The position numbers and the translations under genes are program-made. A stretch of DNA of 64,000 bases from Opitutia bacterium. Lineage in GTDB: Bacteria; Verrucomicrobiota; Verrucomicrobiia; Opitutales; Opitutaceae. The stretch is from contig CANFSZ010000004.1 in NCBI GenBank assembly GCA_947449835.1, forward strand, positions 33,885 through 97,884, given 5' to 3'. Positions 90 through 32,038 of this stretch are shown here, in pieces (positions within the stretch are counted from its first letter, which is position 1; every line of letters begins with the position of its first letter). Below the pieces are notes generated by a model. The model was given only the letters and a program-made list of their open reading frames with translations. It did no database searches and had not been told where the DNA came from.

Positions 90-518
90 TTAAGCGAGGT
101 GCGGACGCAGCCGCGCGATAAGATCGGCGTAATCTACTGCGGAAAGAAGTTGTTTCGGCTCAGGCATCATGGCGAATGGCGCGCCCCAACTCGGGCCATC
201 GACGTACTTCGGCACGAGATGCATGTGCAGATGCGGCAGTTTATCAGAATAGGCGCCGTAGTTTATTTTAGCGGGATTGAAGGCGGCCTTCATCGCCTTG
301 GCGGCGCGGGCGACGTCTTGGGTGAAGAGCGTGAGTTCGGACGGCGGCAACTCGAAGAGCTCGTTGACGTGCGCGCGGTAGGCGACGACGCAGCGGCCGC
401 GGTACGTTTGCTCTTTGAAAAGATAAAGCGTGGAGACCTGCATCGGCCCGATCTCGATCATGAGATCTTGGAGGCGTTGATCTTTGCGGCAATAGAGGCA
501 GTCGGGGAGTTCGGTCAT
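90..518 (-). CDS. HIT (histidine triad) family protein
   Basis: Translation contains the histidine triad HLHMHLVPK and an N-terminal CxxC (CLYCRK). Confidence 0.9.
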   Translation of the reverse strand: MTELPDCLYCRKDQRLQDLMIEIGPMQVSTLYLFKEQTYRGRCVVAYRAHVNELFELPPSELTLFTQDVARAAKAMKAAFNPAKINYGAYSDKLPHLHMHLVPKYVDGPSWGAPFAMMPEPKQLLSAVDYADLIARLRPHLA

Positions 519-609
519 GGGTAAAATAGGCGGAGGCCTATGAGTTTTTATTTTTTGCGCGGGGGCAAGGGCTAGTTGCGGATCGACGAATGCCGCAGCC
601 CGAGTTTGG

Positions 610-1347
610 GTGGAGCACCCTATGAAGAAAAAAATGTTTTTTTGGCTCCTGTTGGTCGTCGAAACATGGGCCGTCGAGCCCAGTTCTCCGAGCTCTTCGG
701 CACCGGTCGATCCGGCAAACTATCTTGCGGATGTGGCCGCGGTGAGTCGCGTCGACTGGCCGAAAAATCGTGCGGTCATGATTGTCTGCCACGGGCACAG
801 CGTGCCAGCGGGTTATTTTAAAACGCCCGTGGTTAACTCGCTCGGGTCGTATCCGCATCTCCTTCGCGCTGGGCTTGCCGAAAAATATCCGCACGCGGTC
901 ATCAACGTCGTCGTGACGGCCATCGGCGGCGAGGATTCCGAAAAAGGGCTGCTGCGTTTTGAACGCGATGTTATGAGCCTGCGTCCTGATGTCGTCACGA
1001 TCGATTACGGTCTCAACGACCGCGGCATGGGCCTCGAGCGGGCGGCGCGCGCGTGGCGGGCGATGATCGAGCGCGCGAAGGCTGGCGGCGCTAAAGTCAT
1101 CTTGCTCACGCCCACGCCCGACACAGCCGCCAAATGGTCCGATCCCGCCGATAAATTGGCTTTGCACGCTGAGCAAATTCGCGGGCTCGCGCGGGAATAT
1201 CAGGTCGCGTTGGTGGATAGTTATGCCGCGTTTCAGCGGCACGCAGCGGCCGGCGGAGTCACGGAGACGCTAATGTCGCAACGCAACCATCCCAACGAAA
1301 AAGGCCACGCCTTGGTGAGCGCGGGGTTACTCGCGTGGTTTCCCTGA
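610..1347 (+). CDS. Secreted SGNH/GDSL-type hydrolase
   Basis: N-terminal signal-like segment; SGNH-like blocks GHSVPAGY, GLND and NHPNEKGH. Confidence 0.75.
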   Translation: MEHPMKKKMFFWLLLVVETWAVEPSSPSSSAPVDPANYLADVAAVSRVDWPKNRAVMIVCHGHSVPAGYFKTPVVNSLGSYPHLLRAGLAEKYPHAVINVVVTAIGGEDSEKGLLRFERDVMSLRPDVVTIDYGLNDRGMGLERAARAWRAMIERAKAGGAKVILLTPTPDTAAKWSDPADKLALHAEQIRGLAREYQVALVDSYAAFQRHAAAGGVTETLMSQRNHPNEKGHALVSAGLLAWFP

Positions 1348-1362
1348 TTTGCAGTGGGTTGA

Positions 1363-2229
1363 TCACCCGCCGGCGCGCACGAGCAGGGCTTTAAGGTGCG
1401 CGTGATCGGTGAGCGACGTTTTGGCTACGAAGCCTCGCGCGTGCGCGAAATGCACGCCCGGCGCGTCTGCGATGCGCGTGAAATCGAGCCGCGGATTATC
1501 TTGAAACCGGGATAAACCGTAGCCGGTGCTGCGGCGATCGGGGGCGACGGTGCCGACGATCTTGCCGGCGAGATTTTGGGCCTCAATGAAGCGTTCGAGT
1601 CCCATCGAAGGCTCGTCCGGCAGCGGATCGGTGCGCGGCAGAAAAAGAATCTGCGCAGGCTCGCCGCCCAGTACGAGTTCCCAGACTTGGGCGTGTTGCG
1701 CGATGAAATCGAGTCGCGTGCGTAGCGTGCGGACGTAGTCCAAAAGGTCCTCCCCGATCATGCGCATAATCGCCCAGAGCGGAGCGGTGGGTTCGATGCG
1801 ATCGGCGAGGGCGAAGCGGCGGAGCAAGGTGATGTCGATCGGGGAGTTGAGTTTGGGAAGGGCGTTGCGGTCGACGCCGAGAAACTTGGCCGTACTGATA
1901 GGGCCGCGGCAATCGAACCACTCGGCGGGCTCGAGCCATTCACAGAATTGGCGAGCGTCGGCGTAGATCCCGAGGTGTTGCAACACGAGCGAAAGGGAGC
2001 AGGTGGGCGCGTGATCTTTGGGGAGTTGGTGGTGATCGAAGTTATTTCGTGCGGGATCGTGTTCGTGGCCGACATCGACGACGGCGATCTTCGGATCGTT
2101 CAGATCGGCGGCGCTGGGTTCGCGCCGAACGATGGGCACGGGATGCAGAGCGAGCAGGACACAGCAGGCGAGGAACTCGTCTTTATGGGCGCTGCCGGGA
2201 TGGGTGAGTAAAGTCGTGAAAGGCGTCAT
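1363..2229 (-). CDS. MYG1 / UPF0160 family protein (DHH-like metal-dependent hydrolase)
   Basis: HPGSAHKDEFLACCVL N-terminus and DVGHEHDPARNNFDHHQ motif typical of the MYG1 family. Confidence 0.8.
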   Translation of the reverse strand: MTPFTTLLTHPGSAHKDEFLACCVLLALHPVPIVRREPSAADLNDPKIAVVDVGHEHDPARNNFDHHQLPKDHAPTCSLSLVLQHLGIYADARQFCEWLEPAEWFDCRGPISTAKFLGVDRNALPKLNSPIDITLLRRFALADRIEPTAPLWAIMRMIGEDLLDYVRTLRTRLDFIAQHAQVWELVLGGEPAQILFLPRTDPLPDEPSMGLERFIEAQNLAGKIVGTVAPDRRSTGYGLSRFQDNPRLDFTRIADAPGVHFAHARGFVAKTSLTDHAHLKALLVRAGG

Positions 2230-2297
2230 GATTAAAGCGCGGGCAACCGCGCCGCGCGCAACGACGTCGGCTGGAGCTGCGTTTGGCGACGCTGAAG

Positions 2298-3308
2298 TTA
2301 TAGGCCCCAGCTCCAGCGCTCGCCTTGCCAGCTAAAGCCGCGTTCGTTCTGAGCGATGCGCCCGAGGCCGGGCCAAGGAAGGTGGAAACCGTAGGCGCGT
2401 TCGTGCGTGTGGGCGAGCTCGGTAAAGAGTTTTTGGCGCGTGTGGATCGCTTGAGCCGGTTCGTGATCATAGGCAATGCCCCACGTCGGATCGGTGAACA
2501 TCAAGGTATGGTGGTGCGCGACATCCATGAAATGCAGGAGCGAGTCGCGGCCAGATTTAATACGAAAAATTGCATGGCCGGACGTGTGCCCGGGGGCGGC
2601 CAGCAAGGTGACGGCTCCGCGGAGGACGGAGTCGCCGTCACGGAGAAATTGCAGGTTGGGTTGAAGGACGTCGAATTTTTCACGCGCATCTTTGATCATG
2701 CCGGGGAGTGGACCCTTGGCTCGTTTGGAGCGGGAAAAATCGGGCGTAGGCGAGCGCCAGAAATCAACTTCTTCGCGTAAGCAATAGACCGCCGCATTTG
2801 GGAAGACGGCGCGGTTGCCGGTGACAAAGCCACCGATGTGATCGGCGTGCGCGTGGCTGAGAAAAGCGTGCGTGATCTGCGCCGGCGCCAAGCCCAGTTC
2901 GGCGAGCGCCGTCGCTACCCAGCCACGCTCAGGATTTTTTCCGGGGCCAAAACCGCCGTCGAAAATCACCAGCTCGCGGCCGATTTTGAGCAGCAGGATA
3001 TTGACGTAGAGCGGGAGCGCATCGGTGCGTTCCCCCCGAGCGATGAGATCGTCGCGCATCGTATGTCGGGCGGCTTCGGGCCACATGAGATCGAGGCCTT
3101 CTCGGAGGAGCATGCTACCGTCGCTGATGGAATAGGCCTCGATGTCACCGATGTTGAAACGGTAGCTGAAGGCATTGCGTGGCGCCGGCTTTTGAGGACC
3201 AGCTTCGACTCCGCGAAGCGATGGCGGCAAAAGCGCGGTACCTACGGTGGCGGCCGAGGCGCAAAGAAAATGCCGACGCGTGGAATTATTGGGTGGGGTA
3301 TTTGGCAT
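2298..3308 (-). CDS. Tat-exported MBL-fold metallo-hydrolase
   Basis: STRRHFL twin-arginine-like leader; HAHADH metal motif; later H and D ligands (APGHTSGH, HFMDVAHH). Confidence 0.88.
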   Translation of the reverse strand: MPNTPPNNSTRRHFLCASAATVGTALLPPSLRGVEAGPQKPAPRNAFSYRFNIGDIEAYSISDGSMLLREGLDLMWPEAARHTMRDDLIARGERTDALPLYVNILLLKIGRELVIFDGGFGPGKNPERGWVATALAELGLAPAQITHAFLSHAHADHIGGFVTGNRAVFPNAAVYCLREEVDFWRSPTPDFSRSKRAKGPLPGMIKDAREKFDVLQPNLQFLRDGDSVLRGAVTLLAAPGHTSGHAIFRIKSGRDSLLHFMDVAHHHTLMFTDPTWGIAYDHEPAQAIHTRQKLFTELAHTHERAYGFHLPWPGLGRIAQNERGFSWQGERWSWGL

Positions 3309-3326
3309 GATGAATATGGAACGATT

Positions 3327-4055
3327 TTAAAAAAGCAGAGCCTGCGAGGGAGAGAAGGTTGTGGCAGGTGCGGGCCGAGCGGCGCGCAGGGCGGCTTGTA
3401 AGGGGCAAAGTTTAACGTCAACGGGACGGCCTTCGCGGTAAAGTCGGAGTAGTTGGTGAGAACGTTGGGCGAGGAGGCGTCGGACCTCGCGGCGACGGCC
3501 CTTGATTAGGGGGATGCGCATCTGATCGTAGCCGGTCGTTTGATGACGGAGCCACGCGATGGTGGCGGCTTCGGCCCGCTCTGGGATGGGAATGCGCTCG
3601 GTGCGGGCGACCGTGCCGCTGCCTACGGGGGTGGCGTGCGCAGCGATAAGTTCGGAGAGAAGTTGGGCGTCGCCGACATGCGCGGGATGGAAGGCGAGAA
3701 ACGTTAATACGGCGGCGCGGAAGTCTTCGACGTAGTCAGTTTGGGCGACGGCGCGGCGAGCGCGGGCGGAGTCGAGTTTGCGTTGATGAGCCGGATCGGC
3801 GCGCTCGTCCAGGAGTTCGGCCCGCAGGGCTTCGATACGATGCGCCGGTGCCCAAATCCCACGGGAGAAGCGCTTGCGGCCTTTCAACTCGAACATGGTC
3901 CACGTGGGGCCGTCCGCCTTGATGCGGCGGCTGAGGGCGGAGTCGCCGGGTGGCAGTAGGATCCAACCGGCGGGCACGGGCTCGAGTACCGCGTGTTCGT
4001 TGATCACGTAACCGGGTTTTTGACTGGGACGGACTTCGCGGGAGGCGTTGGGCAC
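3327..4055 (-). CDS. DUF2293-like conserved protein
   Basis: C-terminal AWLRHQTTGYDQMRIPLIKGRRREVRRLLAQRS resembles DUF2293 as recalled. Confidence 0.5.
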   Translation of the reverse strand: MPNASREVRPSQKPGYVINEHAVLEPVPAGWILLPPGDSALSRRIKADGPTWTMFELKGRKRFSRGIWAPAHRIEALRAELLDERADPAHQRKLDSARARRAVAQTDYVEDFRAAVLTFLAFHPAHVGDAQLLSELIAAHATPVGSGTVARTERIPIPERAEAATIAWLRHQTTGYDQMRIPLIKGRRREVRRLLAQRSHQLLRLYREGRPVDVKLCPLQAALRAARPAPATTFSPSQALLF

Positions 4056-31183: not shown

Positions 31184-32038
31184 CTAGACTTTGACCGCAA
31201 AGAGTTCGGGATGCATGTGACCCTCGGCGACTTTGTTAACGGTGCCAGTCATCATGATGGAAAACGCGTCGCCGATTTCGATGCCGATTTTTCCGCCAGG
31301 CATGTGCACGGTGAGGCTGCGATCGACGAGTCCGAGGCGATGGGCCACGGCCGCGCTGGCGCTGCTGCTGCTGCCGGACGCGAGGGTGTAACCGGCACCA
31401 CGTTCCCAGATTTCGATCTGAATATTGGCGCGGTCTAGGACTTTGAGAAATTGGACGTTGGTCTTGCGCGGGAAATGGGCGTGGGTCTCGAGGTGCGGAC
31501 CGTACTTGTGGGCCATGTCGGCGGAGATTTCCGTGAGCGGGAGCACGCAATGCGGATTTCCGATCGTGGCGGCGCAATACGTGAATTCGCGGTCGAGGAT
31601 CTTGATTTTCTCGTTGAGCACCTCACGGGGCGCGCCGACGACCGGGATTTTTTCGGACGAAAAACTCACGTGACCCATCGCGATGGAAATCAACTGCGCG
31701 TTATCCTTGAGCGCCACGGCGACTTGGCCGCCGGGAACTTCAACGGTGAAGTTTGGCTCTTTGACGAGGCCTTGGTCGTAAAGGAAGCGCGAGAAAATGC
31801 GTAGGCCGTTGCCGGATTTTTCGGCCTCAGAGCCATCGGGGTTAAATATGCGCAGGCCGAATTGACTCGTTTGCGAGGGTAACGGACCCCAAAGAATTCC
31901 GTCGGAGCCGACGCCGAAGTTGCGATGACAAACGACGCGGATCTGCTCGATCGTCGGTGCTGGCTGCCACGAAGGAAAATCGCGGGGATCGAGCACAATG
32001 TAGTCGTTGCCGAGGGCGTGGTATTTATGAAAGCGCAT
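31184..32038 (-). CDS. dapF: Diaminopimelate epimerase family protein (both catalytic Cys replaced by Ser)
   Basis: GNDY, CHRNFGVGSDGI, NPDGSEAEKSGNGLR, TIGNPHCV, FPRKTNVQF, WERGAGYTLASGSSSS; canonical CGNG and ACGTG read SGNG and ASGSS. Confidence 0.85.
   Translation of the reverse strand: MRFHKYHALGNDYIVLDPRDFPSWQPAPTIEQIRVVCHRNFGVGSDGILWGPLPSQTSQFGLRIFNPDGSEAEKSGNGLRIFSRFLYDQGLVKEPNFTVEVPGGQVAVALKDNAQLISIAMGHVSFSSEKIPVVGAPREVLNEKIKILDREFTYCAATIGNPHCVLPLTEISADMAHKYGPHLETHAHFPRKTNVQFLKVLDRANIQIEIWERGAGYTLASGSSSSASAAVAHRLGLVDRSLTVHMPGGKIGIEIGDAFSIMMTGTVNKVAEGHMHPELFAVKV

Follow-up and report, generated by a model that had tools for sequence, protein, structure and literature searches.

A gene in the window (the whole 64,000 nt stretch of Opitutia bacterium DNA that was analysed) encodes a DapF homologue with serine at both catalytic positions, and its product is probably an active DAP epimerase that uses Ser75 and Ser221 as an acid/base pair (probability about 0.7), activity, substrate and the role of the serines being inferred from sequence and genome context. 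That the Ser/Ser gene specifies an active DAP epimerase, whichever groups carry the proton, is very likely, judging by its status as the sole copy, the pathway context, the replacement pattern and its conservation. DapF is essential for cell-wall and lysine synthesis, and in many Verrucomicrobiota the Ser/Ser form is its sole copy. Textbook DapF has two catalytic cysteines, which act as a thiol/thiolate pair and remove a proton of pKa ~29 without a cofactor. Both catalytic cysteines (Cys73 and Cys217 in E. coli) are missing from the window protein, and DapF enzymes probably do not all follow the standard two-cysteine mechanism.

The product of the gene (Table 1) contains both of the motifs quoted earlier, NPDGSEAEKSGNGLRIF and WERGAGYTLASGSSSSASA, and is assigned to DapF by profile matches and by comparison with solved structures. 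It matches the TIGR00652 equivalog profile of NCBIfam over residues 1-275 with 232.1 bits (cut-off 114.65). The comparison with PF01678 and DapF structures that the sequence-only reading had proposed bore out this assignment, with 183.9 bits to PF01678, no other matching Pfam family, and solved DapF structures as the best PDB sequence matches. An AlphaFold model (mean pLDDT 92.9) has the two-domain DAP-epimerase fold, and its top fold matches are PDB DapF structures, with TM scores up to 0.92. The Pfam profile of the proline racemase superfamily gave no match, hydroxyproline epimerases being distant fold matches only, and the score against NF038284, the profile for bifunctional DapF/glutamate racemase, was 59.6 bits (cut-off 350). 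The ORF directly upstream is found repeatedly next to Ser/Ser dapF in Opitutaceae; a Pfam search with its product returned zero matches, and clustering of the genes around Ser/Ser dapF revealed no recognisable lysine-pathway family alongside.

Table 1. Window positions of the Ser/Ser dapF gene, its upstream neighbour, and the codons of catalytic, substrate-contacting and clade-signature residues.
Feature	Position	Strand	Remarks
dapF, Ser/Ser type	31184..32038	minus	ORF, 284 aa; coordinates include the stop codon
Upstream ORF, 495 aa	32179..33666	minus	Same strand as dapF, directly upstream; context, outside the enzyme
Tyr6 (Met6 in E. coli)	32021..32023	minus	Clade signature beside the Asn11 loop
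Asn11	32006..32008	minus	Substrate alpha-amine contact, retained
Gly51-Pro52	31883..31888	minus	One-residue insertion plus Pro; 52/52 Ser/Ser rows, 0/40 Cys/Cys rows
Asn66	31841..31843	minus	Distal DAP contact, retained 123/123
Lys74	31817..31819	minus	123/123 in the Verrucomicrobiota Ser/Ser clade; Cys/Cys enzymes almost always have Met or Gln here
Ser75	31814..31816	minus	Codon TCC; aligns with catalytic Cys73 of E. coli DapF
Asn161	31556..31558	minus	Distal carboxylate contact, retained 123/123
His163 (His159 in E. coli)	31550..31552	minus	Catalytic-partner histidine, retained 123/123
Asn194	31457..31459	minus	Distal carboxylate contact, retained 123/123
Glu212-Arg213 (Glu208-Arg209 in E. 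coli)	31400..31405	minus	Distal amine/carboxylate contacts, retained 123/123
Tyr217 (Glu213 in E. coli)	31388..31390	minus	122/123 in the Verrucomicrobiota Ser/Ser clade
Ser221	31376..31378	minus	Codon TCC; aligns with catalytic Cys217 of E. coli DapF
Ser224 (Gly220 in E. coli)	31367..31369	minus	123/123 in the Verrucomicrobiota Ser/Ser clade

The sequence-only reading had claimed that serine replaces both catalytic cysteines, and this is borne out by the TCC codons at the two sites and by an alignment that sets 123 distinct relatives from Verrucomicrobiota beside E. coli DapF and 38 Cys/Cys homologues. In this alignment Ser75 and Ser221 are invariant among the relatives (123/123) and both cysteines are found throughout the Cys/Cys set. 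Ser75 is spelled by six codons among the relatives, drawn from both the TCN and the AGY sets. Going from one set to the other takes either two simultaneous substitutions or a passage through Cys or Thr, and the occurrence of both sets indicates that the residue itself is selected and is not a frozen error. Pairwise comparison of the window gene with eight relatives gave dN/dS values of 0.03-0.15, and strong purifying selection evidently acts on Ser/Ser dapF. A sequencing error or a pseudogene is ruled out by the 123 orthologues with both serines together with the low dN/dS. In one divergent member (L165) the first motif reads SVNG in place of SGNG.

Only one PF01678 gene is present in the assembled part of the source genome (3.0 Mb in 156 contigs, 86.7% complete). 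A sample of 150 genomes of the same family included 141 with a DapF match, of which 123 are of the serine type, 18 of the cysteine type and none of both, the motifs having been read in most, not all, of the 123 serine-type genes and the remainder classed by identity. The suggestion of a paralogue alongside a canonical DapF is ruled out for the assembled part of this genome (~87% complete) by its single PF01678 gene and, by comparison, for the family, where 0/123 serine-type genomes carry both. The 18 cysteine-type genes are divergent (~25-45% identity) and form one clade in the tree; all 18 encode CGNG, and ACGTG is found in every one for which the second motif was recovered. Among the other Opitutales families, 16 genomes carry the Ser/Ser gene alone, and in a phylum-wide sample it is the sole DapF in families f22 (2 genomes) and f32 (14 genomes). 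Since the cysteine genes are one clade and the other sampled Opitutales families are of the serine type, the simplest history is a single replacement of Ser/Ser by Cys/Cys. Within the family each Cys/Cys gene seems to stand in for one Ser/Ser gene, as functional equivalence predicts. Five genomes (families f38, f48, f53 and f62) have a Ser/Ser gene together with a second DapF-family member, and these second members keep both cysteines and have lost N66, N161 and R213, all of which are present in the Ser/Ser copy. The distal DAP-binding set is therefore intact only in the serine copy of these two-copy genomes, which makes it the DAP-shaped one. Second DapF-family genes from six genomes of other Verrucomicrobiota families (L231-L236) have D/E66, V161 and F213 and keep the cysteines, and probably encode racemases for another substrate.

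The source genome encodes DapL (561 bits), LysA (451 bits) and MurE (483 bits), and no DAP dehydrogenase (Ddh) was found over the cut-off. The product of DapL is LL-DAP and the substrate of LysA is meso-DAP, so that an epimerase is required (PMC4176475). With DapL, LysA and MurE present and no Ddh over the cut-off, the organism has to convert LL-DAP to meso-DAP, and the search turned up no enzyme but DapF that might do so; a bypass through Ddh is rejected for this genome. The closed genome of a relative, G051, has Ddh, no DapF, and retained LysA and MurE, a pattern that fits DapF being dispensable when bypassed. LysA is divergent and scores below the cut-off (236-269 bits) in the genomes with cysteine-type DapF (G008, G013, G019, G029, G042, G048 and others) and is over the cut-off in serine-type genomes, G020 excepted, a pattern suggestive of an exchange of several lysine-pathway genes in the cysteine-type lineage. 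MurE of genus g1 (L227 of the source genome and L225 of G088) has DNPK where the other Opitutaceae MurE sequences read have DNPR, the meso-DAP-type motif. In the same genus, an alanine racemase over the cut-off was found in 2/13 genomes, the source genome not among them.

A possible further function, compatible with DAP epimerization, is that of a broad-specificity enzyme that would also make D-glutamate. MurI is over the cut-off in only 7/32 Opitutaceae genomes tested and is absent from the source genome, and this role has been proposed for PVC members that lack MurI, Chlamydia included (PMC5885031). However, MurI is missing from serine-type and cysteine-type genomes alike, so that there is no link between its loss and the serines; the DAP pocket shows none of the remodelling found in Chlamydia; and the source genome has another gene of the Asp/Glu-racemase family (70 bits). 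A D-glutamate role is, on these grounds, rather unlikely.

The substrate contacts of DapF have been described for the Anabaena enzyme, where Asn13 contacts the alpha-amine, Asn66, Glu215, Arg216, Asn164 and Asn197 contact the distal amino acid, and the backbone NH groups of residues 76, 77, 225 and 226 contact the carboxylate (PMC12039745). Asn13, Asn66, Asn164, Asn197, Glu215 and Arg216 are all retained in the window protein, as N11, N66, N161, N194, E212 and R213 (N11, N64, N157, N190, E208 and R209 in E. coli numbering). The equivalents of H163 and E212 have been termed essential in DapF (PMC5885031), and this pair (His159 and Glu208 in E. coli) is present in 123/123 relatives. The earlier statement that the protein retains every other DapF hallmark is nearly right: it holds for the DAP contacts and the His/Glu pair, but overlooks near-invariant changes specific to the clade, namely Y6, G51-P52, K74, I81, Q196, E209, Y217 and S224. 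Y6 and the G51-P52 insertion occur in essentially all Ser/Ser members, distant ones included; K74, Q196, E209, Y217 and S224 are a signature of the Verrucomicrobiota branch, and of these K74, Y217 and S224 are rare or absent among Cys/Cys enzymes. In Anabaena DapF, the glycine backbone NH at the site equivalent to Ser224 hydrogen-bonds the catalytic sulphur (PMC12039745). The signature residues are candidates for tuning the serines.

In the proposed mechanism, LL-DAP would bind in the interdomain pocket typical of DapF, where Ser75 and Ser221 are predicted to replace Cys73 and Cys217, each at the N-terminus of the corresponding helix, with His163 and Glu212 still alongside. One serine, ionised or aided by the helix dipole and neighbouring residues, would take the alpha-proton, and the other would give a proton to the opposite face, inverting the proximal alpha-carbon to yield meso-DAP for MurE and LysA. 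A clade-specific neighbour (Lys74, Tyr217 or Ser224) may share the acid/base role. The pKa of serine exceeds that of cysteine and its desolvation is more difficult, which is the reason given for the use of cysteine in such racemases (PMC8142540), and in histidine racemase, a canonical-type relative, C67S/C209S changes abolish most of the activity (PMC11602996). Natural serine enzymes, unlike engineered Cys-to-Ser ones, have presumably had time to tune the neighbours. Catalytic serine occurs naturally in the same fold, in the Ser93/Cys236 pair of a 4-hydroxyproline epimerase and the Ser90/Thr256 pair of a dehydratase (PMC4113996). Among the options listed in the sequence-only reading, the evidence favours a two-Ser variant with altered mechanism.

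An unlikely alternative is an active DAP epimerase that does not use the serines as acid and base; the base would then be a clade-specific residue, for example Lys74 or Tyr217, or a cofactor such as PLP would take part. It draws on the conservation of K74, Y217 and S224 across the Verrucomicrobiota clade (Table 1), set against their rarity or absence in Cys/Cys enzymes. Basic residues are missing from the surroundings of the catalytic sulphurs in Anabaena DapF (PMC12039745), which would make a lysine next to the serine a novelty, and glutamate racemization by Chlamydia DapF is reported to be PLP-dependent (PMC5885031). However, the distant Ser/Ser members vary at position 74 (Gln, Arg or Met) and at position 217 (Tyr, Leu or Ser) and yet keep both serines, leaving Ser75 and Ser221 as the sole groups able to transfer protons that are invariant at the two catalytic points. 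The lack of K74 in these distant members speaks against it as the only new base.

It is very unlikely that epimerase activity has been lost, the protein taking on another role and meso-DAP coming from an unrecognised enzyme. Cys-to-Ser changes do cripple a related racemase (PMC11602996), and a non-homologous DAP epimerase has been proposed in Staphylococcus, the PLP-dependent alanine-racemase homologue DapF2 (PMC9026213). In addition, three fairly complete Opitutaceae genomes (G021, G052 and G123, 93-97% complete) have neither DapF nor Ddh, and may have an alternative route or assembly gaps. Against a loss of activity stand the full retention of the DAP-contact residues, the low dN/dS, and the cysteine-type DapF that takes the place of the Ser/Ser gene with no co-occurrence in 141 genomes. 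Alr numbers one in nearly all serine-type and cysteine-type genomes and zero in the source genome; with no surplus Alr-family gene in the serine-type genomes, an Alr-type DapF2 is rejected as a substitute. The inactive enzyme considered earlier is unsupported, given strong purifying selection on a sole copy in a pathway that needs the step.

The guess that the protein belongs to a distinct subfamily proved correct, as the Ser/Ser sequences form one well-supported clade. In a tree built without the trait columns, a branch with an SH-aLRT support of 99 sets all of them apart, and the full tree gives the same split at 100/100, the placement of the distant members being less certain because of their long branches. 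Inside the clade is the dapF of an IMG/VR viral contig (L196), where a serine recombinase lies beside a truncated sigG (180-3768) and the Ser/Ser dapF is downstream; the sigG fragment suggests that the host is probably a spore-forming member of the Bacillota, and the arrangement is reminiscent of a skin-like element. Two further scans of viral contigs recovered only L196 again, and a tblastn search of phage records gave no match above 40% identity. A single scan of genome contigs yielded close relatives only. Also inside the clade are plasmid-borne genes of Agrobacterium vitis and Streptomyces, which share a cluster (L229, 10225-16161 and L230, 10317-16015) containing the Ser/Ser DapF homologue, a haem-oxygenase-like iron enzyme, a PF10014 2OG-Fe dioxygenase, a molybdopterin oxidoreductase and an aldo/keto reductase, with an EamA transporter nearby. 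This cluster looks like a specialised amino-acid-modifying pathway common to distant phyla, and its Ser/Ser members may act on another amino acid. For the window protein, re-purposing as a racemase for a different amino acid is highly improbable despite the substrate diversity of DapF-fold enzymes and these clustered relatives, as the gene is the only DapF of its genome, its distal DAP-binding set is intact, and the members without that set are Cys/Cys paralogues; the earlier suggestion of re-purposing is disfavoured here and may apply to the plasmid members.

The family profiles name Ser/Ser DapF simply DapF, and annotation pipelines apply the label while the missing residues go unnoticed. 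No description of it was found in the open-access papers searched, and a prior characterisation in subscription papers is possible; nor did the open-access literature searched describe any Ser/Ser enzyme of 1,1-proton transfer. The balance tips slightly towards an ancient, multi-phylum clade of housekeeping DAP epimerases performing cofactor-independent, thiol-free 1,1-proton transfer, with a Ser/Ser pair tuned by clade-specific neighbours. A single-copy, naturally selected, thiol-free DapF, if active, would open the reason for the use of cysteine to direct experiment, and natural Ser/Ser and Cys/Cys enzymes that replace each other in one bacterial family provide a comparison system. If the thiol-free reading is true, the clade would be insensitive to thiol-directed DapF inhibitors, and aziridine and thiol-alkylating agents should fail.

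The window protein shares with the DapF enzymes of TIGR00652 (E. coli, H. influenzae and Anabaena) the fold, length, DAP contacts, partner His and Glu, the placing of both catalytic residues on the helices and, probably, the pathway role, but differs in having serine for both cysteines and its own Y6, G51-P52, K74, Q196, E209, Y217 and S224. The Ser/Cys 4-hydroxyproline 2-epimerase B9JQV3 (PMC4113996) has the same fold and is a naturally occurring, active epimerase in which serine is the catalytic residue of one face, although only one of its two catalytic residues is serine, and both its substrate and its family (the proline racemase superfamily) are different. The Ser/Thr trans-3-hydroxyproline dehydratase B9K4G4 (PMC4113996) likewise has no catalytic cysteine and takes the alpha-proton with a serine, but it catalyses a one-base elimination and no 1,1-proton transfer. 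The bifunctional DapF of Chlamydia trachomatis (NF038284; PMC5885031) is a DapF homologue from the wider PVC group, but keeps both cysteines. DapF2 (PMC9026213) is, similarly, a proposed substitute for two-cysteine DapF, but belongs to the unrelated alanine-racemase family and is PLP-dependent.
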